DNA of 64,000 nt from Halobellus inordinatus. GTDB lineage: Archaea > Halobacteriota > Halobacteria > Halobacteriales > Haloferacaceae. Shown in pieces: positions 23,096 through 53,266 of this stretch (within the stretch, counting starts at the first letter, position 1; each line of letters begins with the position of its first letter). The DNA lies in assembly GCF_024464655.1 (NCBI RefSeq), contig NZ_JANHAV010000007.1:62001-126000 (forward strand), read 5' to 3'. The position numbers and the translations under genes were made by a program. The notes under the pieces are model-generated. The model did not search any database. It was not told the origin of the DNA and saw only the letters and a program-made list of their open reading frames with translations.

Positions 23096-23127
23096 CCCCT
23101 AAATAGACCATCACTAATTACAAAAAT

Positions 23128-24198: not shown

Positions 24199-24296
24199 GC
24201 GACTGCGCCGGTCACGGCCCGTCGCTCTTCTGGCCGTTTTCTCGCTTTCGCCGAGCGTTCTTTTCTCGTTTCCCCGACAGCGTCGCTGCTGCCGGC

Positions 24297-24992: not shown

Positions 24993-25068
24993 CTACCGGA
25001 AGTACGTCAGACCCCACTATAATACGCTGGGATGTCATCCCGTTCGGTCCCGCTCCCGTCGACCGATT

Positions 25069-25764: not shown

Positions 25765-25829
25765 CGGTGTCTTAACCGAGACGGCAGAGCGATTTCAGCG
25801 TTGTCCCTTCTGCGTCCCAGCGCTCCGGT

Positions 25830-30793: not shown

Positions 30794-31024
30794 ACCCCCA
30801 CGTAACCGGGCCGTCGTTTAAAACCCTCAGCATTGGCCGGGCTGAGGAGTCGGTCGACACACCGCGATGTCCGGAGTAGTCTGTGTATACTACGCGGTAG
30901 ACAGCTTCTACAAATATCGCGACTCTTTCCGTTTAGCGACTGCCTCGTCGAAAGATCGAACCGACGGACGCTACCGAAGCGACTGTGCGCTATCTTCAAG
31001 TAATTTTGATTGATATTTGTTGGT

Positions 31025-35417: not shown

Positions 35418-35426
35418 CCCTCTCAC

Positions 35427-36260: not shown

Positions 36261-37088
36261 TTATTTCGCGAGGAACCCGGCATCGACTGGGAGAGTGATG
36301 CCGGTGACGTAGCGTGCGGCGTCGCTGGAGAGCCACAGGTACGCCTCAGTAATGTCTCTCGATTCGAGCATCGCGCCTTCATCGAAGATGTTGAACGGGC
36401 CGGAGAGGGCCGAGCCCCCTTCGTCGAGCACCTCCTCGCCGTAGGCTTCGAGCATCCCGCTCACCATCGGCGTGTCGATAGCCGTCGGTGCGACGGCGTT
36501 GACGTTGACGTCGTACTCGGCGAGTTCGAGCGCCAGCGTCTTCGTCAGTCCGCGGACGCCGTGCTTCGCGGAGATGTAGTGGGCGTTCCCGAGCGGGATC
36601 CCGGTGAATCCGGACACCGAGGCCGTGTTGACGATCTTGCCGCCATCCCCTCGATCGATGAAGTGCTTGCCGACGTGCTTCGCACAGAGCCAGACGCCTT
36701 TCAGGTTCGTATCGATCAATTCGTCCCAGATGGCCTCGTCCATCTCCGTGGCTTCGGCCATCGACTCGATGCCGGCGTTGTTGGCGAGGATGTCGATCCG
36801 GCCGAACTCGTCGATCGCAGCCTCGACGGCGGCTTCCACCTCTGCTTCGTCGGAGACGTCTGCTTCGACGGTGAGTGCCTCCTGTCCCTCGTCTTCGACG
36901 AGACTGGCTGTTTCGTCGAGTTCGTCGCTCGTGCCGAGATCGTAGGGGACTGTGTCCTTGTTGTGGTTGATGTCGAGCGCAACGACGTCGGCGCCGTGTT
37001 TGGCGTAGTGCTGTGCGTGCGAGCGCCCTTGGCCGTGTGCGGCACCGGTGACGAACGCCACCTTGCCGCTGAAGTCGTATTCTGGCAT
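36261..37088 (-). CDS. Mycofactocin-coupled-type short-chain dehydrogenase, array copy 3
   Basis: This 275-residue SDR begins MPEYDFSGKVAFVTGAAHGQ, with a bound-NAD type insertion DINHNKDTVPYDLGT. Catalytic residues lie in NTASVSGFTG and AHYISAKHG. The AIESMAEATEMDEA region differs from the other copies, so the substrate pocket has diverged. It is separated by 7 bp from copy 2 and is part of the same operon. Confidence 0.85.
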   Translation of the reverse strand: MPEYDFSGKVAFVTGAAHGQGRSHAQHYAKHGADVVALDINHNKDTVPYDLGTSDELDETASLVEDEGQEALTVEADVSDEAEVEAAVEAAIDEFGRIDILANNAGIESMAEATEMDEAIWDELIDTNLKGVWLCAKHVGKHFIDRGDGGKIVNTASVSGFTGIPLGNAHYISAKHGVRGLTKTLALELAEYDVNVNAVAPTAIDTPMVSGMLEAYGEEVLDEGGSALSGPFNIFDEGAMLESRDITEAYLWLSSDAARYVTGITLPVDAGFLAK

Positions 37089-37095: not shown

Positions 37096-37917
37096 CTATT
37101 TCGCGAGGAATCCAGCGTCGACCGGGAGGTAAATCCCGGTCACGTAGCGTGCGGCGTCGCTGGAGAGCCACATATACGCCTCACTGATGTCCGATGCGTC
37201 GAGCATCCCGCCGTCGCCGAAGACGTTCCACGGACCGGTCATCGCGCCGATCTCTTCGAGGACCTCGTCGCCGTAGGCTTCGGTCATCCCCGCAATCATC
37301 GGCGTCTCGATGCCCGTCGGGCCGATGCAGTTGACGTTGACGTCGTACTCGGCGAGTTCGAGTGCCAGCGTCTTCGTGAGGCCGACGACGCCGTGCTTGG
37401 CCGACACGTAGTGCGCGTTGCCCGGAATGCCGACTTGGCCGGCGGTCGAGGAGGTCGAGACGATTTTCCCGCCGTCGCCACGCTCGATGAAGTGCTGCCC
37501 GACGTGCTTCGAGCAGAGCCACACGCCCTTGAGATTCGTGTCGATCATCTCGTCCCACGTCATCTCGTCCATCTCGACACCGTCGGCGATCGACTCGATG
37601 CCGGCGTTGTTCGCGAGGATGTCGATTTTCCCCATCTCGTCGACGGCTTCCTCGACGGCGGCCTCGACTTGGCTCTCGTCGCGGACGTCCATCTCGATCG
37701 CGAGGGCTTCTTGCCCCTCGTCCTCGACGAGACTGGCCGTTTCGTCGAGTTCGTCGCTCGTCCCGAGGTCGTAGGGAACCGAGTCCACGTTGTGGCCGAT
37801 GTCGGTGACGACGACGTCGGCGCCGTGCTTCGCGTAGTGCTGTGCGTGCGATCTGCCTTGGCCGTGTGCGGCGCCGGTGACGAACGCCACCTTGCCGCTG
37901 AAGTCGTATTCTACCAT
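37096..37917 (-). CDS. Mycofactocin-coupled-type short-chain dehydrogenase, array copy 2
   Basis: This 273-residue SDR shows most of the conserved signature, with DIGHNVDSVPYDLGT in the insertion and catalytic residues in STSSTAGQVG and AHYVSAKHG. The VNCIGPTGIETPM segment carries a Cys that the other copies lack. It lies 9 bp from copy 1. Confidence 0.85.
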   Translation of the reverse strand: MVEYDFSGKVAFVTGAAHGQGRSHAQHYAKHGADVVVTDIGHNVDSVPYDLGTSDELDETASLVEDEGQEALAIEMDVRDESQVEAAVEEAVDEMGKIDILANNAGIESIADGVEMDEMTWDEMIDTNLKGVWLCSKHVGQHFIERGDGGKIVSTSSTAGQVGIPGNAHYVSAKHGVVGLTKTLALELAEYDVNVNCIGPTGIETPMIAGMTEAYGDEVLEEIGAMTGPWNVFGDGGMLDASDISEAYMWLSSDAARYVTGIYLPVDAGFLAK

Positions 37918-37926: not shown

Positions 37927-38748
37927 CTATTTTGCGGTCATACCCGCGTCTACCGGGAGTGCGATACCAGTGACGTAGCGGGCGGCGTCGCTGGAGAGCC
38001 ACATATACGCCTCGCTGATGTCCGTCTCCTCGATCATATCGACGCCTTCGAAGACGCTCCAGGGGCCGCTGAACGCTCCCATCTCGTCCATCATCTCTTG
38101 GCCGTAGGCTTCCGCGAACCCCGAGATCATCTCGGTGTCGACGCCGGTCGGGCAGACGGCGTTGACGTTGACGTCGTACTCGGCGAGTTCGAGCGCCAGC
38201 GTCTTCGTCAGGCCGATGACGCCGTGCTTGGTCGCCACGTAGTGTCCGGCAGAGGGACTCCCGACCAGTCCAGCAGCCGAGGAGGTCGAGACGATTTTCC
38301 CGCCGTCTCCTCGCTCGATGAAGTGCTGGCCGACGTGCTTGCTGCAGAGCCACACGCCTTTCAGGTTCGTATCGATCATCTCGTCCCACTGTTGTTCGGG
38401 CATCTCCGTCATATCGGCCGCGTTGAAGATCCCCGCGTTGTTGGCGAGGAAGTCGATCTTTCCCATCCCGTCGATCGCCTCCTCGACGGCAGCCTCTACT
38501 TCCGCCTCCTCGCGTACGTCCATCTCGATCTTCAGGGCTTCTTGGCCCTCGTCTTCGACGAGACTGGCTGTCTCTGCGAGGTCGTCTGACGAACTGAGGT
38601 CGTAGGGGTTCGTCTCGATGTTCTCACAGATGTCGGTGACGACGACGTCGGCACCGTGTCTGGCGTAGTGCTGTGCGTGTGACCGTCCCTGGGCGCGCCC
38701 GGCGCCGGTGACGAACGCGACTTTCCCGCTGAAGTCGTACTCTGGCAT
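37927..38748 (-). CDS. Mycofactocin-coupled-type short-chain dehydrogenase, array copy 1
   Basis: This is the first gene of the tandem array; it has 273 residues. It carries VTGAGRAQGRSHAQHYARHG, DICENIETNPYDLSSSDDLAE in the insertion, and the triad in STSSAAGLVG and GHYVATKHG. The operon promoter must lie in the AT-rich region 38760-38860. The five array copies are very similar by eye (clearly over half identical), which points to recent tandem duplication. Confidence 0.85.
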   Translation of the reverse strand: MPEYDFSGKVAFVTGAGRAQGRSHAQHYARHGADVVVTDICENIETNPYDLSSSDDLAETASLVEDEGQEALKIEMDVREEAEVEAAVEEAIDGMGKIDFLANNAGIFNAADMTEMPEQQWDEMIDTNLKGVWLCSKHVGQHFIERGDGGKIVSTSSAAGLVGSPSAGHYVATKHGVIGLTKTLALELAEYDVNVNAVCPTGVDTEMISGFAEAYGQEMMDEMGAFSGPWSVFEGVDMIEETDISEAYMWLSSDAARYVTGIALPVDAGMTAK

Positions 38749-38963: not shown

Positions 38964-39048
38964 TCACACTGCCGGACAGAACTACGTGAAGCGTATCGCC
39001 ACCCCGTGGGGGTCAAAACGGTTCACGGACTTCTGTCCGACAGTATCA
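38964..39048. repeat. MITE-like palindromic element, copy 1
   Basis: The left arm CACTGCCGGACAGAACTACG and the right arm CTTCTGTCCGACAGTATCA are inverted, and the element is nearly palindromic around ACCCCGTGGGG. The final TCA (39046-39048) is the reverse complement of the TGA stop of the chelatase-like gene. The same ends occur at 59242 and 14780. Confidence 0.65.
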
Positions 39049-40137
39049 GTCTTCGAGGCCGAGTTCCCGCCGGACCTCGTGGAAAACGCTCATTACGTCT
39101 TGCTCTTCTTCCTCGAACGGGAGTCGCTGTAGCCGGTGCTCCAGCGACATCCGCGCGACTCGCCGCACGGTGCGCGCCGACACCTCGCTGTCGCCCTCGA
39201 AGGCCGCTAGCGTCCGCGCGGCGCGCCGGAGCGTGATGTCGCCGCGGTGGCCGTCGACGTCGAGTTCGATGTTCATTCCCGCGATCAGCCGCGCGATGGC
39301 GTCGTCGAGCGTCACGTCCGGGAGCCGTTCCTCCGCAGTGACGATATCTGCTCGCAACTCCCGCTGCGCCCCGGCGTATTCCGCCCTGAACTCGTCGGGA
39401 TCGGCGTCGAACGCGGCGCGCCGCTGGCTGATCTCCACGCGGTCGTCGACTTCGTTGACGCCCGCGACGTCGACGACCAGTCCGAACCGATCGAGCAGTT
39501 GTGGCCGCAGGTCCCCCTCCTCGGGGTTCATCGTGCCGACGAGGATGAACTCCGCCGGATGGCGGAACGAGACGCCCTCGCGTTCGACGATGTTCTCGCC
39601 CATCGCGGCGGCGTCTAAGAGCACGTCGACGATGTGATCGTCGAGGAGGTTCACCTCGTCGACGTAGAGGATATTTCGATTCGACTCTGCGAGAATCCCC
39701 GGCTCGAACTGTCGTTCACCTTCTTGGACCGCGCGTTCGAGGTCGATACTGCCGACGACGCGGTCCTCGGAGGCGTTGAGCGGCAAGTCGACGACCCGCA
39801 TCGGTTGGGTCCGCGTCGGTAGCTCCTCGCCGGTGTCGACGCGCTCGCGACATTCCGAGCACATCCGTTCGTAGTCGTCCGGCGGACAGCCGTACGGACA
39901 GTCCGAGACGACCTCGTGATCGGGCAGCACGTCCGCGAGCGCCCGGACGGCCGTCGACTTCGCCGTGCCACGCTCCCCGCGGATGAGCACGCCGCCGATG
40001 TCGGGGTTGATCGCGTTGAGCACGAGCGCACGCTTCATCTCCTCTTGGTCGACGATCGCGGTGAAGGGGAACGTCTGGTTCGTGGTCTCCTGTCCCTCGG
40101 TCGCCGCCGCCTCGTGTGTGGTTTCGTGATTCGTCAT
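39046..40137 (-). CDS. Magnesium/cobalt-chelatase ChlI-like AAA+ ATPase
   Basis: This 363-residue protein is an AAA+ ATPase of the ChlI/BchI kind. Walker A is GERGTAKST near residues 54-62, Walker B is [10 protein letters not shown] near 156-165, and the sensor region is [10 protein letters not shown] four-cysteine cluster, CPYGC...MCSEC (residues about 80-96), is inserted after Walker A. In the chelatase complex ChlI powers metal insertion into a tetrapyrrole together with ChlD and a large ChlH/CobN subunit, which is not in this window. It is transcribed with the following gene, about 124 bp away. Confidence 0.8.
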
Positions 40138-40261
40138 TGGTCTTCGTCAGCGTGCTTCGTCTACGTCGTCGGTTTCCGGTCGATTCGTCGGTCGCCGTCT
40201 CGGTCGGGGCCGGTGCGTCGGTCGGCCCGCGGCCGCGTCGCCGCACTTGCCTCTCGGCTGC

Positions 40262-42262
40262 TCACGCGAACTGTCCCTCCTCTTCTTCGACTTCCGTCGG
40301 CAGCGTCGCGTCCCGTGGGAGTTCGACCAGCGGCAGGTAGTCCGCGCCCATCGTCTCCGCGAAGGTGAGGTTCCGCTCGAACCGCTTGCGCTTCATCCGC
40401 TCTGCCTTCCGGTCGGTCCAGATCTGGTCGGGCGTCGTGTCGAGTTCGTAGCCGGTGTCGACGAACACCGAGGGGATGTCGTCTTCGTCGAACAGCGCGG
40501 CCGCGCGGAAGGCGTCCTCCTTCGCGTCCCCGTCCTCGCGGTACTCGACGTTCGTCTGGCCGTCAGATAGCAGCACGACGAGCGGGTAGAGGTCCTGATC
40601 GCGACGTCGCTCGCGCTGTACGAGACGGTACGCTTCGACGAGACCGTGTGCCAGCGGCGTGTTCCCGCCGACCGTCAGCTTCGAGACGGCGTCGCGGGCC
40701 ATTCGGTGGTTCCGGGTCGGCTCGACGAGCGTGAACGCGTCTTCGCCGCGGAAGACGACGACGGCGACGCGGTCCCGCGCCCGATACGCGTCCTCGACGA
40801 GCGAGAGCAGCCCCCGCTTCGTCTCCATCATCTGCCGCCCGCTCATCACGCTCCCGCTCGCGTCGACGACGAACACGACGAGTGCGCGGGCGGTCCGCTC
40901 GCGGATCTTCTGGCGGAGGTCCCGCGGTTCGATCACGAGGCCGCCGCGTCGGCCCTCGGTACGCCGGTGCTGATGCGGCGCGGCCGCCCGAACGGTCGCG
41001 TCGATCGCGACGTCGTCGACGTCCTCCTGCAGTCGCGACCGGACGTACCGTCCGCTTCTCACGTCCACGCGCGAGGGCGTCCGCCGGGCGAGTGCGTCGC
41101 GCATCGTCCGGTCCTTCGTCGGGTCGATCGCCGTTCGATCGATCGTGTAGGAGTCCTCGCCCTCGGCGATCGGAATCCCGCCGGCCTCGGTGTCGAGGCT
41201 CTCGTCGCCTTCGGTGTCGCTCTCGTCGTCTTCTTCGCCCGCCTCCGGCTCCTCGTCGCCGCCGGTCGAGAGCACCCCTTCGCCGAAGCTCATCTCGGCG
41301 ACGCCCTCGACGCGGTGCGGGAACACGAAGTACTGCGCTTCTTTCACGTGGGCGGACGTCGCCTCCGACGCCCCTTCGAGAGCCGCGATCGACCGCGCCA
41401 CGCGCTCGACTGCGATGTCCGCTCGCATCCCGTGGGCGCGCTGGCGAAGTGCCTCGTAGGACGCGTCCCTGAGCAGTTCTTCGTCGATCTGAACGTCGCC
41501 GAGGCGATCCCGTGCCGCCCGCAGTCGGTCGGCGAGCGCGCGTTGCTCCTCGCGGTAGTCCGCTCGGAACGCTTCGGGGTCGGCGTCGAACCGCTCGCGG
41601 CGCGCGGCGATCTCGACGCGCTCGTCGATGTCGTCGCTCGCGGTGACGTCGACGACGACGTCGAACCGATCAAGGAGTTGGGGACGGAGGCCGCCTTCTT
41701 CGGGGTTCATCGTGCCGACGAGGACGAACTCCGCCGGATGGCGGACGGAGACGCCCTCGCGTTCGACGATGTTCTCGCCCATCGCGGCGGCGTCCAAGAG
41801 CACGTCGACGATGTGGTCGTCGAGGAGGTTCACCTCGTCGACGTAGAGGATGTTCCGGTTCGCTTCAGCGAGAATCCCCGGCTCGAATCGCGGGCGACCC
41901 TCCCGGACGGCGGTCTGGAGGTCGATGCTGCCGACGACGCGGTCTCCGGAGGCGTTGAGCGGGAGGTCGACCACCCGAATCCGTTGGGTCCCGGTCGGGA
42001 GCTTCTCGCCGGCGTCGACACGCTCGCGACATTCCGAACACATCCGTTCGTAGTCGTCCGGCGGGCACCCGTACGGACAGTCCGAGACGACCGCTTGTTC
42101 CGGGAGGACCTCGGTGAGCGCACGGACTGCGGTCGACTTTCCCGTCCCGCGTTCGCCGCGGATGAGCACGCCGCTGACGTCCGGGTTGATCGCGTTGACG
42201 AGCAGCGCGCGCATCATCGCGGCCTGATCGACGACAGCGGTGAACGGGTACGATACGTCCAT
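40262..42262 (-). CDS. Chelatase-like fused ChlI AAA+ plus ChlD von Willebrand A protein
   Basis: This 666-residue protein has an N-terminal AAA+ ATPase that closely matches the preceding ChlI-like protein (GERGTGKST, same CPYGC...MCSEC cluster, [10 protein letters not shown]). An acidic linker follows near residues 345-385. The C-terminal VWA domain (about 455-650) has a MIDAS motif, VVDASGSVMSG, at about residue 465. The start is ATG 42262 (MDVSYPFTAVV); a start 12 codons upstream is possible. ChlI-ChlD fusions occur in archaeal chelatases. Because no ChlH/CobN lies nearby, a chelatase-like remodelling role on a local redox enzyme is possible. Confidence 0.78.
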   Translation of the reverse strand: MDVSYPFTAVVDQAAMMRALLVNAINPDVSGVLIRGERGTGKSTAVRALTEVLPEQAVVSDCPYGCPPDDYERMCSECRERVDAGEKLPTGTQRIRVVDLPLNASGDRVVGSIDLQTAVREGRPRFEPGILAEANRNILYVDEVNLLDDHIVDVLLDAAAMGENIVEREGVSVRHPAEFVLVGTMNPEEGGLRPQLLDRFDVVVDVTASDDIDERVEIAARRERFDADPEAFRADYREEQRALADRLRAARDRLGDVQIDEELLRDASYEALRQRAHGMRADIAVERVARSIAALEGASEATSAHVKEAQYFVFPHRVEGVAEMSFGEGVLSTGGDEEPEAGEEDDESDTEGDESLDTEAGGIPIAEGEDSYTIDRTAIDPTKDRTMRDALARRTPSRVDVRSGRYVRSRLQEDVDDVAIDATVRAAAPHQHRRTEGRRGGLVIEPRDLRQKIRERTARALVVFVVDASGSVMSGRQMMETKRGLLSLVEDAYRARDRVAVVVFRGEDAFTLVEPTRNHRMARDAVSKLTVGGNTPLAHGLVEAYRLVQRERRRDQDLYPLVVLLSDGQTNVEYREDGDAKEDAFRAAALFDEDDIPSVFVDTGYELDTTPDQIWTDRKAERMKRKRFERNLTFAETMGADYLPLVELPRDATLPTEVEEEEGQFA

Positions 42263-42395
42263 AACAATAATACACACAAGATACGGTATCTTAAACAATT
42301 AGCGGTCAAGATGGTCACGACCCCGTGTCACGAGCGGTACATCTTTATCGTCTCTCTCACTATTGTATGTTAGGTAACGTCACTCAATCAAAATT

Positions 42396-44336
42396 ATGAC
42401 AGATATGCTCTTCACGCCGCGACGGATCGGGTCCGTCACCATCCCGAACCGGACGGTGTTTCTCGCCCACGAGACGGGGTTCGCCGAAGACGGACTCCCG
42501 ACGGAGCGAGACGCCGCGTACTACGAGGCGAGGGCCCGCGGGGGCGTCGGACTTATCATCGGCCCGTCAAGTATGCTCGTCCACCCGAGCGCCTCGAACC
42601 CGATGTACGCTGCGGGCTACGATCCGGACGTCGTACCGCGATTAAAGGAAATCGGCGCCGCCTGCCACGAGCACGGGACGAAAGTGTTCGCCCAACTCCA
42701 GCACACCGGCGGCGAAGACTCCGGCGAACACGCGATGCGCGAGACCTGGGCCCCCTCGGCAGTGCCCTCCGAGTTCGGCTACGAGATGCCGAAACGGATG
42801 GAACTCGAAGACATCGAGGAGGTCAAACTCGGGTTCGCGAAGACTGCCGACCACGTCAAGGAAGGCGGCCTCGACGGTATCGAACTCAAAGCCGGCCACG
42901 ACGGCATCCTCCGACAGTTCCTCTCGCCGAAGTACAACACCCGATCCGACAAGTACGGTGGCTCGATCGACAACCGCGTCCGACTGGTGAACGAGGTCGT
43001 CGAGGCGATCCGCGACCGCGTCGGCGACGATTTCCCGGTCGGGATCCGCCTGACGCTGGACGAGATGGAGGAAGGCGGCTACGACTACGACTACGCGGTC
43101 GAGGTCCTCCGCCGACTCCACCCGAGCCTCGACTTCCTCGATTCGGACATCGCCACCATCTCGAAACTCCACATCACCGACGCGCCGATGCACGCCCCCT
43201 TGGGGTATACTTCGGAGTACTACGGCGCGGCCCGCGAACTGCTCGACATTCCCGTCATCGCCGCCGGGCGGATCAACGACCTCACGAAGGCCAACGACGT
43301 CCTCGAAGAGGGACGCGCGGACTTCATCGGGATGTGCCGACAGCTCATCTGTGACGCCGACACCGTCCGGAAGGTCCGCCGCGGCGAGGACGAGGAAGTG
43401 ACACACTGTATCGCGTGCAATCAGAACTGCCTCGGCGGCATCCACACCAACGGACACGTCGGGTGCATCCAGACCCCGCGGTCCGGGCGGGAGACGAAGA
43501 TTCCGCACGTCGAGGACGTCGACGACGCCCCGGCCCCGAGACGGGTGCTGGTCGTCGGCGGTGGGCCGGCAGGGCTTTCCTTCGCGGTGACGGCGGCCGA
43601 TCTCGGCCACCACGTGACAATCCGCGAGCGGGAGTCGGAACTCGGCGGCCAATCGAACATCGCCACGCAGGTCGACTCCCGCCGGGAGTTCGGCGACGCC
43701 GTCCGCAACCTCCTCAATCAGTTGGGGAACCGGGACGTCACCGTCGAGACCGACACAGAGGTCACGGCGGCGGACGTCGCCGGCGAGTCGTGGGACGAGA
43801 TCGTGATCGCCACCGGCGCGACCGAAAAGCAACCCGAACTCGCCGGCCCGGACGTCCACCGCTCGTGGGACGTGCTCCAGGGCGAGTCGGTCGGAGACAG
43901 CGTCGTCGTCTTCGACAACAACAAGCACGCCGCGGGCGTCGGCGTCGCGGAGTACCTCGTCGACGCCGACCGCGACGTGACGTTCGTGACGACCTCCTAC
44001 CATCCGGGCGACCAACTTGAGGGGACGAACGTCCCGCCCTTCCTGGAGACGCTCTACGAGAACGACGTCGACATCGTGACTCACACGACCGTCATCGGCT
44101 TCGAGGACAACGCCGCGCAGTTGCTCAACGTCTACTCAGAAGAGATGACGACGGTCGAGGCCGACTCGCTCGTGGTCGCAGCGCGCCGCGAGGCCCGGAC
44201 CGGCCTCGCCGAATCGATTCGCGAGCAGGGCGTCGACGGGGACGCGGTCCACCGCATCGGCGACTGCGTCGCCCCCCGACTGATCGACAAGGCGATCTAC
44301 GACGGCGAGATGCTCGCACGGGAGCTTTCGGTATGA
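42396..44336 (+). CDS. FadH/OYE-family flavin oxidoreductase, second copy (mycofactocin-associated type)
   Basis: This 646-residue protein has an FMN TIM barrel with HTGGEDSGEH and RQFLSPKYN, then the [4Fe-4S] motif CIACNQNC with a fourth Cys in GCIQTP (about residues 338-360), and a dinucleotide-binding half beginning VLVVGGGPAG. It is the first gene of the ETF operon; its stop overlaps the ATG of etfA (ATGA). The 12-mer TCAATCAAAATT lies directly before the ATG. It likely exchanges electrons with the ETF. Confidence 0.82.
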   Translation: MTDMLFTPRRIGSVTIPNRTVFLAHETGFAEDGLPTERDAAYYEARARGGVGLIIGPSSMLVHPSASNPMYAAGYDPDVVPRLKEIGAACHEHGTKVFAQLQHTGGEDSGEHAMRETWAPSAVPSEFGYEMPKRMELEDIEEVKLGFAKTADHVKEGGLDGIELKAGHDGILRQFLSPKYNTRSDKYGGSIDNRVRLVNEVVEAIRDRVGDDFPVGIRLTLDEMEEGGYDYDYAVEVLRRLHPSLDFLDSDIATISKLHITDAPMHAPLGYTSEYYGAARELLDIPVIAAGRINDLTKANDVLEEGRADFIGMCRQLICDADTVRKVRRGEDEEVTHCIACNQNCLGGIHTNGHVGCIQTPRSGRETKIPHVEDVDDAPAPRRVLVVGGGPAGLSFAVTAADLGHHVTIRERESELGGQSNIATQVDSRREFGDAVRNLLNQLGNRDVTVETDTEVTAADVAGESWDEIVIATGATEKQPELAGPDVHRSWDVLQGESVGDSVVVFDNNKHAAGVGVAEYLVDADRDVTFVTTSYHPGDQLEGTNVPPFLETLYENDVDIVTHTTVIGFEDNAAQLLNVYSEEMTTVEADSLVVAARREARTGLAESIREQGVDGDAVHRIGDCVAPRLIDKAIYDGEMLARELSV

Positions 44337-45406
44337 CAGGTGCAATACTCATCGTCCCCGAATCCGACGACGTGGCGCTGCTCGAGGAAGCACACCGGCT
44401 GGCTGAGGAACTTGCGGAGACCGACGGCGACTCACCGGCCGTCGTCACCGTCGCCTTCGAGGGCCTCGTCGATCCGGACGAACTGGCGAGTGCGAACCCG
44501 GACGAAGTCGTCCACGTCGTACGCGACGGCGACGAGCAGTTCGCTGCTGGGGCCGCCGGTGTTCGGGCCCGTGCCGAGGCGCTCGTGGCGGTCGCAGACG
44601 ACCCCCGTGTCGTTCTACTGCCTGATACCGCCGACGGCGCCGACCTCGCGGCGGCGACGGCGCGGCGGCTCCGGGGTGGCTGCGTCACCGACTGCCTGCT
44701 CCGGGTCCGCGACGGCGAACTGACTGCGGGGCGGCAGGCCTACGGCGGGCGCGCCTACGCCGAACTCTCCTTCGAGGGCGGCCCGCCCGTCGTGACGCTG
44801 AACACCGAGGCACTCGGGTCGCCGGCGGCCCCGCCGACCGGCTCCCCATCGGTTCGCGAAGTCGAGGTGAGCGTCGCGGACGACGACCGACTCCGGCACG
44901 TCGAGACGTTCGACGTGCCAGAAGCGGACTTAGCGAAGGCACGCCGCATCGTCGCCGGCGGGTTCGGCCTCGGCGGCCCCGACGGCTTCGAGGTTATCGA
45001 GGACCTCGCCGACGCCGTCGGGGCGGCGGTGGGCGCGTCTCGGCCGCCCTCCGACGAGGGCTGGGTAGCCTACGATCGACAGATCGGCGTCACGGGAAAG
45101 GAGATCGACGTCGAACTGTACGTTCCGTGTGCTATCTCCGGTGACTCCTACCATATGCGCTCGGTGAACGCGGAGTACCTGATCCCGATCAACTCCGATC
45201 CCGACGCTCGCATCTTCAACTTCGCTGATATCGGCATCGTTGGCGACGCGTACGAGTACGCGCCGGCGCTCGCGAACGCGATCCGAGACGCGAAAGCCGA
45301 AGCCGAGAGCGAACCGGGGACGGGCGAGACAGAGGCGGTCGGCGACGGTGGCGAGCGCGTCGTCGATCCTGGTGCTGAGGGCTCCCCCGAGGAGGTGCGG
45401 GAATGA
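44333..45406 (+). CDS. Electron transfer flavoprotein alpha-type subunit
   Basis: This is a 357-residue EtfA. The FAD-binding C-terminal half starts at DLAKARRIVAGGFGLGG and has YDRQIGVTGKEI, VPCAISGD and INSDPDARIFNFADIGIVGD. The N-terminal half is an adenine nucleotide alpha hydrolase-like domain. An acidic, low-complexity tail (GDGGERVVDPGAEGSPEEVRE) follows residue 330. It belongs to the mycofactocin-associated ETF group by context and is coupled by ATGA overlaps on both sides. It would accept electrons from dehydrogenases. Confidence 0.82.
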   Translation: MTGAILIVPESDDVALLEEAHRLAEELAETDGDSPAVVTVAFEGLVDPDELASANPDEVVHVVRDGDEQFAAGAAGVRARAEALVAVADDPRVVLLPDTADGADLAAATARRLRGGCVTDCLLRVRDGELTAGRQAYGGRAYAELSFEGGPPVVTLNTEALGSPAAPPTGSPSVREVEVSVADDDRLRHVETFDVPEADLAKARRIVAGGFGLGGPDGFEVIEDLADAVGAAVGASRPPSDEGWVAYDRQIGVTGKEIDVELYVPCAISGDSYHMRSVNAEYLIPINSDPDARIFNFADIGIVGDAYEYAPALANAIRDAKAEAESEPGTGETEAVGDGGERVVDPGAEGSPEEVRE

Positions 45407-46716
45407 CCGACGTCGACTTCGACGTCGTGGTCGTCGGATCGGGACGGGCCGGGACCGCGGCGGCGTACAAACTCGCGACCGAGGGCCTCGACGTCGCCCT
45501 CGTCGAACGCGCTAAACAGCCGGGGATGAAGAACATCACCGGCGGCGTCCTCTACGGACAGATCCTCGACGAACTCGTCCCGGAGTTCCCCGAGGAAGCG
45601 CCCTTGGAGCGGCACGTCGTCGAACACAACATCAAACTCCTCCACGGCGACGCCGAGGTCTCGATCGGCTACCGAGACCTGTCGCTGCGCGAGGAACCGA
45701 ACTACACCCTGATGCTCGGGAAGTTCGATCAGTGGTTCGTCGAGCGCGCCGTCGACGAGGGAACGATCTTTCTCCCGGAGACGACGGTGAAGGACGTCAG
45801 CCAGCATTCCGACCGCGCTGTGGTCCACACGGACCGCCCGAACGGCGACCTCTCGTGTCACGCGGTCATCGGTGCGGACGGCGTGAACACCACGGTCGGC
45901 CGCGCGACCGGGATCCAGCGGACGATGCGAAACGAGGATATGGCGCTCTCGGTGAAGAAGGTCCTCGACGTGGGCCGCGACACTATCGACGAGCGGTTCA
46001 ACCTCGACAGCGACGAGGGCGCGGCGTACATCTACACCGGCTACCCCGAGGACGCGCCGACGATCGGCTACTTCATCTACACCTTCGAGGAGTACCTCTC
46101 TGTCGGCGCGGTCGGCGGCCTCGAAACCCTTCGGTGGCTCGGTGAGCAGGGCTACGGCGGGACGGGAACGCCGCTGTACGGTCTCTTAGAGGAATTTATG
46201 GAACTCGACACGGTCCGCCCGTACGTCAAGGGCGACGCGCTCGAAGAGTACCAGGGGATCTTAGTCCCCGAGCACTCCTACGACACGCTCCCGGACCGCT
46301 ACGACCGCCGCGTGGCGCTCGTCGGCGACGCCGCGGGTCTCGTCTTGAACAAGGGCTACACCTTCCGCGGGCTCGATTACGGCATCAAGAGCGGGCTGGA
46401 GGCCGCCGAGGCCGCCATCGAGCGCACGCGCGACGGCAACTGGGACGCGTTCGGCCGACGTTACGACGAGCGCCTGGAGAACTCCTACGTCCTCGAAGAT
46501 ATGAAGCAACACCGTCACCTCCCCGAATTCCTGAAGAACGAGCGGATGTACGGGGCGTATCCCGGGATCGCGATCGAGACGCTCCGCGGTATGTACTCCG
46601 CCGGCAGCGACGCGGAGGGTCTCACCTGGAAACAAGCCTTCCGCGCCTTCCAGCAGAGCGATGCGGGCGTCACGGACCTACTCAAAGACGGTTTCCGGGG
46701 GTTCCGCTCGCTATGA
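45403..46716 (+). CDS. fixC: FixC-like FAD-dependent ETF:quinone oxidoreductase
   Basis: This 437-residue flavoprotein has a Rossmann FAD motif VVVGSGRAGTAAAYKLA at residue 9, GGVLYGQILDEL, ADGVNTTVGR-like GADGVNTTVG, and the late GDAAGLVLNKGYTFRGLDYGI motif. It is of the geranylgeranyl reductase/FixC family and, with FixX, forms an ETF dehydrogenase that passes electrons to quinone. It is coupled to etfA and to a 37-residue frame by ATGA overlaps. Confidence 0.85.
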   Translation: MTDVDFDVVVVGSGRAGTAAAYKLATEGLDVALVERAKQPGMKNITGGVLYGQILDELVPEFPEEAPLERHVVEHNIKLLHGDAEVSIGYRDLSLREEPNYTLMLGKFDQWFVERAVDEGTIFLPETTVKDVSQHSDRAVVHTDRPNGDLSCHAVIGADGVNTTVGRATGIQRTMRNEDMALSVKKVLDVGRDTIDERFNLDSDEGAAYIYTGYPEDAPTIGYFIYTFEEYLSVGAVGGLETLRWLGEQGYGGTGTPLYGLLEEFMELDTVRPYVKGDALEEYQGILVPEHSYDTLPDRYDRRVALVGDAAGLVLNKGYTFRGLDYGIKSGLEAAEAAIERTRDGNWDAFGRRYDERLENSYVLEDMKQHRHLPEFLKNERMYGAYPGIAIETLRGMYSAGSDAEGLTWKQAFRAFQQSDAGVTDLLKDGFRGFRSL

Positions 46717-46826
46717 CCGAAGCGACCCAAAAAGCAATGCCTTTCGACACCAATGAGACACCGGTAACAGGTATGAGTTCACACACCACACGAACGACGG
46801 CGATCCACGGAGGGAGAGAGCGATGA
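46713..46826 (+). CDS. 37-residue microprotein between fixC and fixX
   Basis: This frame begins at the ATG that overlaps the fixC stop (ATGA) and ends with the TGA that overlaps the fixX start (ATGA). It is coupled at both ends and fills the 106 bp gap exactly. The protein (MTEATQKAMPFDTNETPVTG then a Ser/His/Thr-rich end) has no known motif. It could be a real microprotein or a leader for coupling. Confidence 0.4.
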   Translation: MTEATQKAMPFDTNETPVTGMSSHTTRTTAIHGGRER

Positions 46827-47113
46827 GCGTACAGGACAGCCTGGAGACGGTGAACTGGGACGTGAGCGAGGAGGCCCACATCACCGTCGACAACGAGCTG
46901 TGCGTCACCTGTGAGGACAAGCCCTGTCTCCACCTCTGCCCGGCGCAGTGTTTCGACTACCAAGAGGATCAGGAAGGCGGGATCTACTTCGCGTACGAGC
47001 CCTGCATCGAGTGCGGTGCGTGTATGGTGTTCTGTGCGAACGACCCCGAGAAGGGGGCCGTCTCCTGGTCAAAATCAGAGGGCGGCAAGGGCGTCGAGTT
47101 CGACTTCGGGTGA
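46823..47113 (+). CDS. fixX: FixX-like ferredoxin
   Basis: This 96-residue protein carries CVTCEDKPCLHLC and CIECGACMVFC with the flanking Cys-Pro pattern of a [4Fe-4S] ferredoxin. It shows the DYQEDQEGG and VSWSKSEGGKGVEFDFG ends of FixX. It partners FixC in ETF:quinone oxidoreduction and ends two bases before the SDR start. Confidence 0.87.
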   Translation: MSVQDSLETVNWDVSEEAHITVDNELCVTCEDKPCLHLCPAQCFDYQEDQEGGIYFAYEPCIECGACMVFCANDPEKGAVSWSKSEGGKGVEFDFG

Positions 47114-47115
47114 CG

Positions 47116-47907
47116 ATGCGCCTCGACAATCGAACCGCCGTCGTGACAGGCGGCGCGAGCGGGATCGGCGCGGCGACCTGCCGCGTGCTCGCCGAGCGCG
47201 GGGCCGACGTCGTCGTCGCCGACCTCGACGAAGAGCAGGGCGCAGAACTCGTGGACGAGATCGACCGCGAGCGCGACGGCGGCGCGTCGTTCGTCGAGAC
47301 GGACGTGAGCGACGAAGACGCCGTCGCCGGGATGGTCGACCACGCCGAGGCGGAGTTCGGACGCCTGGACGTCCTCGTCAACAACGCTGCCGTCGCTTCT
47401 CGCGAGGCTGACGGTCCGGTCACCGACCTCGCGGACGACGCCTACGACTTCCTCACCGGCGTCAATCTCCGGGGGTCGATGTACGCGTGCAAACACGCGA
47501 TTCCGGCGATGCAGGACACCGGCGACGGCCACGGCGTCGTCGTGAACAACGCCTCTATCGCGGCGCTCGTCGCCGAACCGGGAATGGACATCTACACCGC
47601 GACGAAAGGTGCGCTGGTGTCGCTCACGCGTTCGATCGCCATCGAGTACGCGCCCGAGATCCGGGCGAACACGGTCTGTCCGGGCGTCGTCGAGACGCCG
47701 ATGCTCGAAGCGGCGATGGACAGCGGAGCGGGCACAGAGGACGACGGCGACGTTCCGGACACGCTCGACCGGATGATCGAGGAGACGCCGCTCGGGATGG
47801 CCGATCCCGCGGACGTCGCGCACACGGTCGCCTTCCTGGCCTCGTCCGACGCGAAAGCCATCACAGGTGCGACGATCCCAGTCGACGGGGGGTACACCGC
47901 ACGATGA
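47116..47907 (+). CDS. Classical short-chain dehydrogenase
   Basis: This 263-residue SDR starts at ATG 47116. It has the standard VTGGASGIGAATC glycine motif, NNAAV, catalytic Ser in NNASIAAL, Tyr/Lys in MDIYTATKG, and the VDGGYTAR end. It lacks the GQGRSHA and long-insertion signature of the mycofactocin-coupled copies, so it uses free NAD(P). It sits inside the fixX-etfB operon and overlaps etfB by ATGA. Confidence 0.87.
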   Translation: MRLDNRTAVVTGGASGIGAATCRVLAERGADVVVADLDEEQGAELVDEIDRERDGGASFVETDVSDEDAVAGMVDHAEAEFGRLDVLVNNAAVASREADGPVTDLADDAYDFLTGVNLRGSMYACKHAIPAMQDTGDGHGVVVNNASIAALVAEPGMDIYTATKGALVSLTRSIAIEYAPEIRANTVCPGVVETPMLEAAMDSGAGTEDDGDVPDTLDRMIEETPLGMADPADVAHTVAFLASSDAKAITGATIPVDGGYTAR

Positions 47908-48767
47908 AGGCACTCGTCACTGCACGACCCGAACCGCACCGCGTCGTCGACGACGACGGCAACGCCGAACCGTACCGCTGGCAACTCAGCATCGACGACC
48001 GCGTGGCGCTGGAAGCCGCCCTCGACGTCGCAGACGACGTCGTCGCCGTGGGCATCGGCGGCGACCCGGCGCGCGCGAGCGTCCGATCCGCGCTCGAACG
48101 CGGTGCCAATCGTGGGATCCACGTCGCGTTCGACCCGATCGAAGAGATCGCCGGCGAGAAGTATGCGACGGCGCTCGCCCGCATTGCGGCTCGCGAGTCG
48201 CCGGACGCCGTCTTCGTCGGCGAAACGTCCTCGTTCGCCGGATCGGAGGTTGCATCGCTCGCGGCTGCCCGCATCGACTGGCCCTGCGCGACGCGGGCCA
48301 CGGCCCTCGGGGCCGAGAACATCGACGTCGACGGGGATATCGAGGCGGACGACGACGAACTCGTGGTCCAGCGAAAGCTCGCGATCGGCCGGCAGGAGGT
48401 CGTCGTCACCGCGCTTCCGACAGTGCTCGGCGTCGACGCGGGATTCACCGACCCCGATCGGGCGTCGCTGGACACCGTCATCGCCGGACGCCGCGCGGAG
48501 ATCGAAACGCGCGACCTCGAAGCCGTCGTGCCCGGCGAAACTCGGTTCTCGATGAGCATCGGCAACGCGACCGTCGAGAACGTCCGGCCGAACGAGCGCT
48601 GGGGTCGCGGGCGACCGCCTCGTCAGGGGACCGTCGAAGAACGCATCTATCGGATGCTCGGCCGCGGCAGCGGCGACACCAAGAGCGCCGGCGAGCGTAT
48701 CGACGCGCCCCCCGAGGAGGCTGCCGACCGCGTCGTCGCGTTCCTCAGGGAGAACGAGCTGCTCTGA
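47904..48767 (+). CDS. Electron transfer flavoprotein beta-type subunit
   Basis: This 287-residue EtfB-like protein starts at ATG 47904, which overlaps the SDR stop. Visible markers are DRVALEAALDVADDVVAVGIGGDPARASVRSALERGAN, DAVFVGETSSFAGSEVASLAA and RQEVVVTALPTVLGV. A C-terminal segment after 230 is extended and carries GRGRPPRQGTVEERIYRMLG. The partner EtfA lies upstream in the operon. Its end overlaps the end of mftF on the opposite strand by 23 bp. Confidence 0.8.
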   Translation: MKALVTARPEPHRVVDDDGNAEPYRWQLSIDDRVALEAALDVADDVVAVGIGGDPARASVRSALERGANRGIHVAFDPIEEIAGEKYATALARIAARESPDAVFVGETSSFAGSEVASLAAARIDWPCATRATALGAENIDVDGDIEADDDELVVQRKLAIGRQEVVVTALPTVLGVDAGFTDPDRASLDTVIAGRRAEIETRDLEAVVPGETRFSMSIGNATVENVRPNERWGRGRPPRQGTVEERIYRMLGRGSGDTKSAGERIDAPPEEAADRVVAFLRENELL

Positions 48768-50478
48768 GGCGTCTGAGCGCCTTCACACCGATTCCCGAGA
48801 GCCTGAACCGGGCTGTCGGGCGGAGGTGCGAAAGCGTTCGGTGTTCGACCGCCCCCCTGTACACGCCGCGCTGGTAGCCGAGGTGATCCGCGAGATAGTA
48901 CGTGCTGTAGGCGAGAACCGACGTCTCAGGATTCGAGACGCGGTACTCGACTCCCAGCGGGAGCGTCATCGCGACGGCGACAGCACACAGGAGGATCGCC
49001 CCACCCACTTCGGCGCCATTGATCACGCCGGTCGCTCCGGCGAACACACCGACTCCGCCGAGTGTCACCAGCGGTCCGGTGTAGTACCGCGTGAGTTCGC
49101 GGGCGAGCGCGTACGCCGACGAGAGACGTCCCCGTGCCCAACTCTCGACGACGTCACCTGGCGTGATTGCCGGCGAGAGCCGTCGGAACTGTCGCCACCG
49201 GGCAGCACCGCCAGCGATTGCGCCCACGCCAGCGAGCGCGATACCGACTCCGACCACGGCTGCCGTGAGCCAGTCCGGAAGCGGAGCCGCGACCGTCGCT
49301 GCCATTCCGGCACTCGCGAGCACGACGACGGTGAGGCCGATTGCCGAGATCTCGACGCTGTCCATCCCCTCGCGTCCCCGCTCACGCGCGAGGAGCGCTT
49401 CCGACGCACCGTACGCCGTCCGCCGTCGGGCGAACGACCGGACTCCGGTTCGATACACGTGCTCGACGACGCCGTCGGGCGTGTAGACGACGTCGAACCC
49501 CGCTTCCAGCGCGCCCCAACACACGGCGACGTCCTCGGCGACGTTTCGTTCGGGGAAAGGCACCGCCTCGAAGACCGCCCGCCGCCCGACGAGGTTCGCC
49601 GTCGCGAGGTACGGCGTCTCGCCCCCGGGATCGACGCGGGAGGCCCGCGGCCCCATATCGAGCGAGGAGTTGTGCCCCTCGTAGACGCTCGCGGGGCCGT
49701 CCCCTGCGGGACGAATCCGCCCGCCGACGAGGTCGTGCGCGGCAAGATGCGGCACGAGATCGGCGAGCCACGACGGCCGCGGTCGGCAGTCGGCGTCGGT
49801 GAACGCGACGACCCCGTAGGCGGTGACCTCGACGCCGCGATTTCGGGAAGCACCGATACCCAGCGGCTCGTCCGCCGTTCCGACGGAGACCACTCGGATA
49901 CGCCGCTCGTCGGCGAGTCGATGGTTCACAGCAGCGTCCGGAGTGCCGTCGGTCGATCCGTCGTCGACGACGACGACCTCGTAGGTCGGATACGCCAGCT
50001 CTGCGAGCGCGTTCAGACACGCCCGCAGGTGTTCGCGATCGTTTCGGACCGTGACGACGACCGATACCGGCGGCGTGTGAGTGGGGTCCCGCGCGGGTCG
50101 CCACTCCAGGAATCCGCGCTGGTGAAGCCGCTCACACAGGGTTCGAATCGACGACGGACGCGTCCCGGTTTCCTGGGCGATTGCCTCAGGTGCGCGGAAC
50201 GCGCTCTCGCGACCTAGCGCGTCGACGACGTGGACCGCGGCGTCGTTGAGTCGCGTCGCCGTGAGCGGACGCTTCGAGACGAGGATGTCGTCGACGAGGC
50301 CGACACCGTCCCGCAGTCGATACTCCCCGCTCGGGTCGGGTGCGCTTTGATCGGTACGCTCTGGCGCCGGTGTCGTGTCGTCGCCGATGGGATCGGGTTC
50401 GTTCGCCCCGTTCCGTCTCCGCGGCGAATTGCGGGTGACTTCGGCGCCTGCGTCGGACGAGGAGTGGGACGGTTCCAT
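48745..50478 (-). CDS. mftF: MftF-like family 2 glycosyltransferase
   Basis: This 577-residue protein begins with an acidic leader, then a PqqD-like winged helix (about 55-125: YRLRDGVGLV to LHQRGFLEW). A GT-A glycosyltransferase domain follows (VSVVVTVRNDREHL near 137, VVVDDGSTDG, FTDADCRP DxD-type motif), then four transmembrane helices in the last third. In mycofactocin biosynthesis MftF builds oligoglucose chains on the cofactor. It is last in the minus-strand order mftA-mftB-mftC-mftF, 8 bp after mftC. Confidence 0.82.
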   Translation of the reverse strand: MEPSHSSSDAGAEVTRNSPRRRNGANEPDPIGDDTTPAPERTDQSAPDPSGEYRLRDGVGLVDDILVSKRPLTATRLNDAAVHVVDALGRESAFRAPEAIAQETGTRPSSIRTLCERLHQRGFLEWRPARDPTHTPPVSVVVTVRNDREHLRACLNALAELAYPTYEVVVVDDGSTDGTPDAAVNHRLADERRIRVVSVGTADEPLGIGASRNRGVEVTAYGVVAFTDADCRPRPSWLADLVPHLAAHDLVGGRIRPAGDGPASVYEGHNSSLDMGPRASRVDPGGETPYLATANLVGRRAVFEAVPFPERNVAEDVAVCWGALEAGFDVVYTPDGVVEHVYRTGVRSFARRRTAYGASEALLARERGREGMDSVEISAIGLTVVVLASAGMAATVAAPLPDWLTAAVVGVGIALAGVGAIAGGAARWRQFRRLSPAITPGDVVESWARGRLSSAYALARELTRYYTGPLVTLGGVGVFAGATGVINGAEVGGAILLCAVAVAMTLPLGVEYRVSNPETSVLAYSTYYLADHLGYQRGVYRGAVEHRTLSHLRPTARFRLSGIGVKALRRLRAARSP

Positions 50479-50486
50479 CGCTCGGG

Positions 50487-51446
50487 TCAGTCACCGGAGA
50501 GGATCGCCCGCAGTTGTGGATCCTCGCCGTTCGGGTCCGAACTGCCCATCGCGACCGCGGGACATCCCTCGTGGTCGTCGATCCGGCTCCGGAGGTTCGC
50601 GATCTCGCTCCACGCCGTCTCGAAACCGTCCTCGATCACGTTCCCGGATGCGAGGTGGTCCCATTGGGTGAACGCACACGGGTAGACGTCGCCCGCGGGG
50701 TCGACCAGACACGTCATCGAGCCCGCACCGCACTGTTTGAGCGTGTCGTTTCTGACCTCGCCGAGCGCGTTCAGATAGAAGAACGAATCGCCGGTCCGGA
50801 CGTCCTGGTGGTCTTCGAGCCACTCGTGGAGGAACCGGATCTGCTCGGCTTCGAGGCGGAACTCGTCCCAGGCGTCCTCGCCGCGGCCGCTCGGACGGAA
50901 GCGGTTCAGACGCAGGCCCGCGCCGTGTGCGTCGGCGAACTCGTATATCTCGGGGAGGTCGGCGACGTTCTGCCGGGTGACCACCGTGTTGACGGTGGTA
51001 CCGATGTCGCGGTCCTCCAACCGTTCGAGCGCGTCGACGACCTGATCGTAGACGCCCTCTCCGCGGATGGCGTCGTTTTCGGCGCGCAGGCCGTCCATAC
51101 TCACTTGGAGGAACAGCGGATCCATCGCCTCCAGGCGGTCGAGCGTCGTCTCGTCCAACTGGGTCCCGTTCGTGCTCACGCACGTCGAGATGTCCCGCGC
51201 CGTGAGTGCTTCGAGGAGTTCCAGCATATCGGGACGGACGAACGGCTCGCCGCCGCCGATGTTCACCTGGAAGACGTCCATCTCGTCGAGTTCGGCGATG
51301 AACGATTTGGCCTCCGCGGTGGTGAGTTCGTTCGGCATCTGATGACCGGGGCCGCTCCCCGACAGACAGTGATCGCAGTGGAGGTTACAGCCCAGCGTGA
51401 CCTCCCACGTGATCGTGACCGGAGCCGATAGGGGCTCACTCGCCAT
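50487..51446 (-). CDS. mftC: MftC-like radical SAM maturase
   Basis: This 319-residue radical SAM enzyme has the CNLHCDHC cluster motif (Cys 20, 24, 27), GGGEPFVRPD near residue 63 and STNGTQL near 94. The C-terminal SPASM-like region has only Cys 239, 246, 257 and 295 (ending EGCPAVAMGS...GEDPQL). MftC normally decarboxylates and cyclises the C-terminal Val-Tyr of MftA and carries three Fe-S clusters; here some auxiliary-cluster cysteines seem missing. It overlaps mftB by 11 bp. Confidence 0.85.
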   Translation of the reverse strand: MASEPLSAPVTITWEVTLGCNLHCDHCLSGSGPGHQMPNELTTAEAKSFIAELDEMDVFQVNIGGGEPFVRPDMLELLEALTARDISTCVSTNGTQLDETTLDRLEAMDPLFLQVSMDGLRAENDAIRGEGVYDQVVDALERLEDRDIGTTVNTVVTRQNVADLPEIYEFADAHGAGLRLNRFRPSGRGEDAWDEFRLEAEQIRFLHEWLEDHQDVRTGDSFFYLNALGEVRNDTLKQCGAGSMTCLVDPAGDVYPCAFTQWDHLASGNVIEDGFETAWSEIANLRSRIDDHEGCPAVAMGSSDPNGEDPQLRAILSGD

Positions 51447-51678
51447 CGCTGAGCACCCCCCGCTGTAGGAGTGTCTCGACGACGTCCGGCGAGAACTCCG
51501 CTTCGACGGCTTCGCGCGACCGCTCGCCGTCGACGAATTCGAGCATGTCGATGACGGTGTCGCTGACGGCGTACATCGAGGCGTCCTCGTACCCGTAGTT
51601 CTCGTGGTCGTACACGAGCCCGCCGTCGGCCTCCCGCCGGAATTTGATGTGTGCGGGCTTTGAGACGGTCGTCGGCAT
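51436..51678 (-). CDS. mftB: MftB-like peptide-recognition (RRE/PqqD) protein
   Basis: This 80-residue protein starts at ATG 51678, one base after the end of mftA. HIKFRREADGGLVYDHENYG is the first beta hairpin, and DTVIDMLEFVDGERSREAVE followed by DVVETLLQRGVLSDGE are the helices of a PqqD-type RiPP recognition element. It would bind the MftA leader and hand it to MftC, with whose gene it overlaps. Confidence 0.85.
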   Translation of the reverse strand: MPTTVSKPAHIKFRREADGGLVYDHENYGYEDASMYAVSDTVIDMLEFVDGERSREAVEAEFSPDVVETLLQRGVLSDGE

Positions 51679-51679
51679 C

Positions 51680-51838
51680 TCAGTACACGCCACAGATGCC
51701 GTCGATCTTGAGCTCCTCCTCGAAGAGGTCTTCCTCGATCGTTGGCTCGTCTGTCTCCGAGTCCGCGTCGGCGTCGACATCCGTCGCGACCTCGGTGGCC
51801 GTCTCCTCAGTTTCCGCATCCGCGGCTGTCTGTGACAT
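51680..51838 (-). CDS. mftA: MftA, mycofactocin precursor peptide
   Basis: This 52-residue peptide starts at ATG 51838. The leader is strongly acidic (VATDVDADADSETDEP), followed by IEEDLFEEELK and the C-terminal core IDGICGVY. The Val-Tyr terminal pair that MftC decarboxylates and cross-links is present. The bacterial core reads IDGMCGVY, so Met is replaced by Ile here. The order mftA-mftB-mftC matches bacterial clusters. Longer in-frame starts upstream exist but add an unlikely cysteine-rich leader. Confidence 0.9.
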   Translation of the reverse strand: MSQTAADAETEETATEVATDVDADADSETDEPTIEEDLFEEELKIDGICGVY

Positions 51839-51987: not shown

Positions 51988-52476
51988 ATGGACCCAGTTC
52001 GCAGTAGCCTCGGTGGCGGAATCGCAGCCACCATCGTCCTCTTGGCGCTTCTGCTTGTGTTCGATATGCTCCTCGCTGGCACGGACCTGTTCGTGTTCGC
52101 CACCTTCACCAGCCTGTGTGCCGTCGGTGGTCCGCCGTACTGTCGACCGCAAACGCTGACAGCGACCATCCTGACGCTCACGTGGTTCGTGCTGCTCTTC
52201 GCCGTGGCGTGGCCGCTCCTGTTCGGCGGCTTCACGTGGGGGCTCCCCGGCGAATCGGGCCTCACGCACGGCGTGATCTACGGCTTGATCCTCTGGTCGG
52301 GCTACCTCGTCATCGTGCTCTTCGCGGTCGGCTTCGGTGGGGAGTCGCTGCGGGCGAACCTCCCGTTTCTCGGCATCACGCTCCTCTCGTACGTCGTGTA
52401 TGGGCTCGTCTTGGGTGGTGGCTACGATTATCTCGCTCACCACCGGACCTTCTTGAGCGAGGAATCGACCGCTTAA
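51988..52476 (+). CDS. Multi-pass membrane protein of unknown function
   Basis: This 162-residue protein has four hydrophobic helices (about 10-30, 55-77, 95-118, 125-147) and no recognisable enzyme motif. It is divergent from mftA with a shared 149 bp promoter region that includes a TATA-like GTATACTTTTC before its start. Its position next to the precursor gene is the only hint of a mycofactocin link. Confidence 0.65.
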   Translation: MDPVRSSLGGGIAATIVLLALLLVFDMLLAGTDLFVFATFTSLCAVGGPPYCRPQTLTATILTLTWFVLLFAVAWPLLFGGFTWGLPGESGLTHGVIYGLILWSGYLVIVLFAVGFGGESLRANLPFLGITLLSYVVYGLVLGGGYDYLAHHRTFLSEESTA

Positions 52477-52507
52477 CCGACGTATGTGACTGCTACTGGA
52501 ACTACGA

Positions 52508-53266
52508 ATGGACACGCTCAGCGCTATCGTCGTCGCGACCGTCAGTATCAGTTTCACCGCCTGGATCGGCGTTCTCACGCTGTTCCTCCGCGACGAACTG
52601 GTGGATCAGGTGTTGCTCGGCCTGGTCGCGCTCGCCGCGGGCAGTCTCATCGGTGGCGCGTTCCTCCACTTGCTTCCGCGTGCGATCGCCGAGTCGGGAT
52701 CGGCGGATACGCTCCCTCTGTTTCTATTTCTTATCGGCGGCTTCTGTCTGTTCTACGTACTCGAACAGTTTCTTCACTGGCATCACCACCACGCGGCGAC
52801 GCACGAGCACGAACCCGTCTCGTATCTGGTCTTGGTCTCCGATACGCTTCACAACTTCATCGACGGCCTCGTGATCGCCGGGGCGTTCCTCCTCGGCACG
52901 CCGCTCGGAATCGTCACGACACTGGCGATCGCGCTCCACGAGATCCCACAGGAGATCGGAGATTTCGGCGTGCTCGTGTACGGTGGCTTCGGGCGGCGGC
53001 GCGCGCTCGTTCTCAACTATCTCACGCAGGCGACCGTGATCCTCGGCGGCGTCGTCGGCTTCTTTCTCGGGGACGTCGTCACCGGATTACCGTCGGTACT
53101 GCTATCGTTCGCGGCGGGGAACTTCATCTACATCGCGAGTTCTGACCTGATCCCCGAAATCAAACAGGAAACTGGAGTTCGCCGCTCGATACTTTACTTC
53201 CTCGTCTTTCTCGGCGGCATCGTCCTGATGCTCGGTGTCCGCTTGCTCGACGGCGTCCTCCGGTAA
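52508..53266 (+). CDS. ZIP-family metal transporter
   Basis: This 252-residue protein has about eight transmembrane helices. The ZIP signatures HNFIDG (helix 4) and HEIPQE (helix 5) form the metal site, and a His-rich cytoplasmic loop HWHHHHAATHEHE precedes helix 4. ZIP proteins import Zn, Fe or Mn. It starts 31 bp after the preceding membrane protein, likely in one operon. Confidence 0.88.
   Translation: MDTLSAIVVATVSISFTAWIGVLTLFLRDELVDQVLLGLVALAAGSLIGGAFLHLLPRAIAESGSADTLPLFLFLIGGFCLFYVLEQFLHWHHHHAATHEHEPVSYLVLVSDTLHNFIDGLVIAGAFLLGTPLGIVTTLAIALHEIPQEIGDFGVLVYGGFGRRRALVLNYLTQATVILGGVVGFFLGDVVTGLPSVLLSFAAGNFIYIASSDLIPEIKQETGVRRSILYFLVFLGGIVLMLGVRLLDGVLR

Follow-up and report, generated by a model that had tools for sequence, protein, structure and literature searches.

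A mycofactocin island in the haloarchaeon Halobellus inordinatus with an MftC lacking the ligands of auxiliary cluster II and a linked OYE-ETF-FixCX block

Mycofactocin (MFT) is a peptide-derived electron carrier that is best known from mycobacteria. In archaea, all components of the system were reported by Haft 2011 (PMC3023750) on plasmid pHTUR01 of Haloterrigena turkmenica, with the cluster drawn in Figure 2 and the archaeal CGVY terminus noted. RefSeq annotates mftA, mftB2 and mftC in H. turkmenica and Halolamina sp. CBA1230, and mftE and mftF as well in H. turkmenica. The sequence-only reading had presented haloarchaeal mycofactocin as not well described, a novelty that these two sources remove, and a claim that the system is new to archaea is likewise ruled out by them.

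The window analyzed in this study, a 64,000-nucleotide stretch of the H. inordinatus genome (contig NZ_JANHAV010000007.1, positions 62,001 to 126,000), carries mftA-mftB2-mftC-mftF on the minus strand at 48745-51838. As on pHTUR01, a convergent ETF-FixX-FixC-ETF-OYE block comes next, and beyond it lie AAA/VWA genes and mycofactocin-coupled SDRs. The pHTUR01 MftC is 85% identical to that of the window and shows the same loss of auxiliary cluster II (AuxII), although a divergent mftE adjoins mftA on the plasmid and none is present in the window genome. The MftA core, the radical-SAM domain of MftC, MftF, and the SDR partners are shared with the mycobacterial mftABCDEF(G) cluster, whereas here MftB2 takes the place of MftB, MftC has no AuxII ligands, and MftD, MftE-clade and MftG proteins over the cut-off are missing.

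The four genes are separated by 1, -11, and 8 bp, in agreement with the sequence-only reading, and its assignments of the first three held when family profiles were applied. The precursor gene mftA (51680-51838, minus strand) encodes 52 residues ending in IDGICGVY and scored 30.9 bits against TIGR03969 (cut-off 25), the 80-residue recognition protein (51436-51678, minus strand) scored 134.9 bits against the peptide chaperone family MftB2 (NF043018, cut-off 62), and the 319-residue radical SAM maturase (50487-51446, minus strand) scored 309 bits against MftC (TIGR03962, cut-off 265), so that both MftB, as MftB2, and MftC exceeded their cut-offs at this locus. The IDGICGVY terminus was identical in 15 of 15 haloarchaeal copies, the order mftA-mftB2-mftC-mftF was kept in the other haloarchaeal loci compared, and the motif DG[IM]CGVY followed by a stop was found a single time when the window was read in six frames and was missing from all 200 mononucleotide shuffles; a chance origin is excluded by the invariant core, the conserved gene order and the shuffle test together. 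The proposal of mycofactocin biosynthesis in a haloarchaeon is thus supported by family matches, synteny, and co-occurrence, and membership in the mycofactocin system appears well supported at the sequence level.

The window's mftB product had no listed match to TIGR03967 (MftB) at E <= 0.001, and the block GLVYDHENYGYEDA of MftB2 was invariant across nine aligned haloarchaeal copies. MftB2 (51436-51678) contains an insert, DHENYGYED, that does not vary among haloarchaea and that bacterial MftB does not have; this insert could make up for the shortening of MftC. Concerning the fourth gene, mftF (48745-50478, minus strand) encodes a 577-residue glycosyltransferase with an N-terminal domain, in which Pfam identifies GT2, and its TIGR03965 score of 266 bits lies slightly below the cut-off of 280; its assignment is supported by synteny, and the orthologue in H. 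turkmenica carries the annotation mftF. The PqqD half of the proposed PqqD-glycosyltransferase fusion could not be confirmed, since Pfam detected no PqqD domain and a profile comparison of the N-terminal domain with MftB2 was not significant (probability 7%). As the TIGR03965 match starts at residue 64, ahead of the GT2 domain at residue 139, the N-terminal domain belongs to the normal MftF architecture and indicates no special fusion.

Among the loci compared, MftF was 48-69% identical and MftC, the best conserved Mft protein, was 75-94% identical across haloarchaeal families. In the window, MftC has the radical-SAM cluster ligands Cys20, Cys24, and Cys27 and the AuxI-type ligands Cys239, Cys246, Cys257, and Cys295, and the AuxII ligands are absent. 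When cysteine columns were scored in 15 haloarchaeal MftCs and in seven bacterial ones, all plasmid-borne, the AuxI-type positions (Cys250, Cys257, Cys268, and Cys322 of Mycobacterium chubuense MftC) were occupied in 15/15 and 7/7, respectively, and the AuxII positions (Cys309, Cys312, Cys318, and Cys340) in 0/15 and 7/7. The CX2CX5C motif and the last cysteine, assigned to AuxII following published work on AhbD (PMC10452713) and characteristic of SPASM domains with two auxiliary clusters, are thus missing from every haloarchaeal copy. Because M. tuberculosis MftC shares CX2CX5CX3C exactly (Haft 2011, PMC3023750), the haloarchaeal copies genuinely deviate from the family in this loss.

The high identity of the shortened MftC and its conserved tail, HEGCPAVA.GS, argue for selection and against decay, and a sequencing or frameshift artefact was ruled out by the equal length and tail in 15 loci. 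The best PDB match of MftC, both by sequence and by fold, was SkfB, a RiPP maturase with one auxiliary cluster of the Twitch type (PMC6231123); like SkfB, the haloarchaeal enzyme would modify a peptide with a single auxiliary cluster, but SkfB forms thioether links in another peptide, has a fused RRE, and is only ~21% identical. The AlphaFold model of MftC was set aside as a judge of the cluster sites, since a large part of the auxiliary-cluster domain had a pLDDT below 50. The AuxII-less form of haloarchaeal MftC looks unreported, no report having been found in the literature searched, which omits most subscription journals. In the same phylum and another class, an MftC-like protein of genome G551 was considered as MFT and left out because it is longer, falls under the cut-off, and has all four AuxII cysteines. 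A 478-residue radical SAM/SPASM protein that is extended at its N-terminus, also from another class of the phylum (locus L061, 1093-2529, minus strand), lies just under the MftC cut-off.

The sequence-only reading had spoken of a full architecture, which proved wrong here: besides the AuxII half of MftC, the genome is without MftD and MftG over the cut-off and without an mftE-clade creatininase. Neither MftD nor MftE is universal among mycofactocin systems. By HMM cut-off, MftD was found in 0 of 13 MFT-positive haloarchaeal genomes; weak LldD-like homologues (138-154 bits) occurred in five of them, the window's included, and eight had no LldD-like match even at 1e-10. No MftG (TIGR03970 or TIGR04542) exceeded the cut-off in the 13 genomes. 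In the creatininase tree, an mftE clade (99/98 support) contained the mft-linked creatininases of 11 MFT-positive genomes, encoded beside or near mftA, with no member from the window genome or from G216, so that an mftE elsewhere in the window genome is ruled out by the tree; two other creatininase paralogues grouped with counterparts from MFT genomes in which mftE is retained as well. The 252-residue ORF at 52508, at the site of mftE in relatives, was rejected as a creatininase and is a ZIP transporter. A DUF6789 protein and this kind of metal transporter (51988-53266) occupy the mftE place upstream of mftA, as they do in Halobellus sp. Atlit-31R.

In M. smegmatis, the delta-mftE mutant still makes some MFT, and the delta-mftD mutant makes none and accumulates AHDP (PMC7491314); it is therefore for MftD that a replacement is needed. 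The former result, together with the weak LldD-like matches and the paralogous creatininases, would suit an ordinary mycofactocin cluster, in which the AuxII loss and the missing mftD and mftE are functionally meaningless and unlinked LldD-like enzymes and other creatininases fill the steps. We regard this as unlikely, since eight of the 13 MFT-positive genomes lack any LldD-like match at 1e-10 and the loss of the AuxII ligands is exact and clade-wide rather than scattered.

It is also improbable that the AuxII-less MftC makes a different product, such as a decarboxylated, uncyclized peptide or AHDP, giving an altered cofactor and not canonical mycofactocin. A passage of PMC10452713 cites AuxII as needed for formation of the final product by bacterial MftC, so that its loss could mean altered chemistry; the lack of MftD over the cut-off, with the AHDP accumulation seen in M. 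smegmatis without mftD, and the assignment of MftB2 to a separate family, marked by an insert that does not vary, point the same way. However, MftA keeps its core unaltered, and proteins of the mycofactocin-coupled SDR family, the expected readers of the cofactor, score above the family cut-off.

Six of these SDRs lie on the minus strand of the window between 33014 and 38748 (33014-33859, 34593-35426, 35427-36248, 36261-37088, 37096-37917, and 37927-38748), all above the TIGR03971 cut-off at 313-330 bits. The system itself is patchy: of 391 genomes sampled from the class, 13 carry it, some on a plasmid or small contig and others on a large chromosomal contig. TIGR03971 SDRs over the cut-off were found in 19 of the 391 genomes, namely in all 13 MFT-positive genomes, with two to six scored in each, and in 6 of 378 MFT-negative ones (Fisher p ~4e-20). 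The six haloarchaeal genomes without MftC (G286, G053, G161, G207, G242, and G383) have one such SDR each and are thus exceptions to the restriction of these SDRs to MFT-positive genomes.

The block facing mftF lies on the plus strand; neither it nor the neighboring mycofactocin-coupled SDRs figured in the sequence-only reading. It comprises an OYE/FadH-type flavoenzyme with [4Fe-4S] cysteines (42396-44336; TIGR03997 634 bits, cut-off 793), an etfA-like gene (44333-45406) nearest to the mycofactocin-associated ETF alpha family NF038209 but below its cut-off, a fixC-like ETF:quinone oxidoreductase (45403-46716) matching the FixC of PDB 7koe, a fixX-like ferredoxin (46823-47113) that is 68-98% identical in relatives, an SDR below the TIGR03971 level (47110-47907, start inferred) that has the same position in the Halolamina ETF operon, and an etfB-like subunit (47904-48767) whose start was placed from relatives, the Pfam ETF domain having been found on the longer ORF 47487-48767; the matching ETF gene is annotated in Halolamina and H. 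turkmenica. EtfB, FixX, FixC, EtfA, and OYE genes were near mftF in 13 of 13 MFT-positive haloarchaeal genomes, all of which have a FixC copy of at least 58% identity, whereas identity was 40% or less in all others listed. That the peptide product is another RiPP and no cofactor, its SDR and ETF neighbors merely sharing a catabolic plasmid, is very improbable, because, although other catabolic genes accompany several of the loci on a plasmid or small contig, the SDRs and FixC tightly co-occur with MftC across genera, chromosomal loci included.

The OYE protein keeps its [4Fe-4S] cysteines, and its third domain, which has DNNKHAAG in place of GxGxxG, aligns with histamine dehydrogenase; the best PDB match overall was 2,4-dienoyl-CoA reductase. 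Enzymes of the histamine dehydrogenase type pass electrons to ETF or similar acceptors and do not use NAD(P)H. In alignments, E occupies the position of the TMADH covalent-FMN Cys and K that of the active-site Tyr, and because neither residue is kept, an amine-dehydrogenase role of this protein is put forward as a hypothesis.

A comparable arrangement is found in bacteria. The plasmids of Streptomyces NBC_00334 and SAT1 carry ETF alpha and beta (named mycofactocin-associated by NCBI), FixC, FixX, OYE, and SDR genes beside mftABC/F/E, with no mftD on the plasmid; however, their MftCs keep all AuxII cysteines, their MftB is of the standard family, and their OYE, FixC, and EtfA share only 31-38% identity with the window's proteins. 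Of the seven bacterial MFT records, the four that lack the block have mftD, and the three that carry it, all from Streptomyces, have none on the plasmids, to which the search extended; for NBC_00557, the stretch read held only the first gene of the block.

Taken together, gene content, the AuxII ligand loss, the absence of MftD, MftG and the mftE clade, and the co-occurrences can be read from the sequences, and we infer from them the product, the activity of MftC without AuxII, and all electron-transfer roles. We favor, at a probability of roughly 70%, a functional island for MFT biosynthesis and utilization with a one-auxiliary-cluster MftC and redox chemistry linked to ETF and FixCX. In such an island, MftA would be presented by MftB2 to MftC, which would decarboxylate and cyclize the C-terminal Val-Tyr with the radical-SAM cluster and one auxiliary cluster only, since the haloarchaeal lineage has lost AuxII. 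In most haloarchaea MftE would cleave off the leader, a task left to some other peptidase in the window genome. The step from the amine AHDP to the redox-active keto form, performed elsewhere by MftD, would most likely fall to an enzyme of the OYE-EtfA-FixC-FixX-EtfB block; the best candidate is the OYE/FadH-type flavoenzyme, which would work in the manner of histamine or trimethylamine dehydrogenase and deliver electrons to ETF. MftF would add glucose, the adjacent SDRs, as nicotinoproteins, would oxidize alcohols and reduce MFT, and the SDR-derived electrons would reach the quinone pool again through the ETF-FixCX chain instead of MftG. The more specific proposal, that a single-auxiliary-cluster MftC (a SPASM-to-Twitch change) performs both reactions on MftA and that the OYE-ETF-FixCX chain replaces both MftD and MftG, is tentative.

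Between the OYE block and the SDRs, a ChlI/MoxR-like AAA ATPase (39046-40137) and an AAA/VWA cobaltochelatase-like protein (40262-42298), both on the minus strand, form a pair (39046-42298) that sits in this place in most MFT islands and may help to insert a cofactor into a partner enzyme or to activate it. The region 14874-32965 encodes the alpha and beta subunits of a Rieske ring-hydroxylating dioxygenase, an aldehyde dehydrogenase, a second OYE, an ADH near TIGR03989 (307 of 440 bits), and a caprolactamase/hydantoinase-A-like protein, and these catabolic genes may be a source of alcohols for the MFT-coupled SDRs. Farther away, a very large ORF of 2360 residues (215-7297) is followed by a PKD-domain protein (7491-10280).

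What auxiliary cluster II does in SPASM enzymes has been described as unclear (PMC9012708), and a lineage that is without exactly the AuxII ligands, and whose MftC is strongly selected, would offer a direct test of that role. Approximately a quarter of MFT genomes are without MftG, and what replaces it was stated to be open (PMC11778925); for this replacement, the linked ETF-FixCX chain offers a concrete candidate, as does the co-occurring OYE for the MftD step that is missing.
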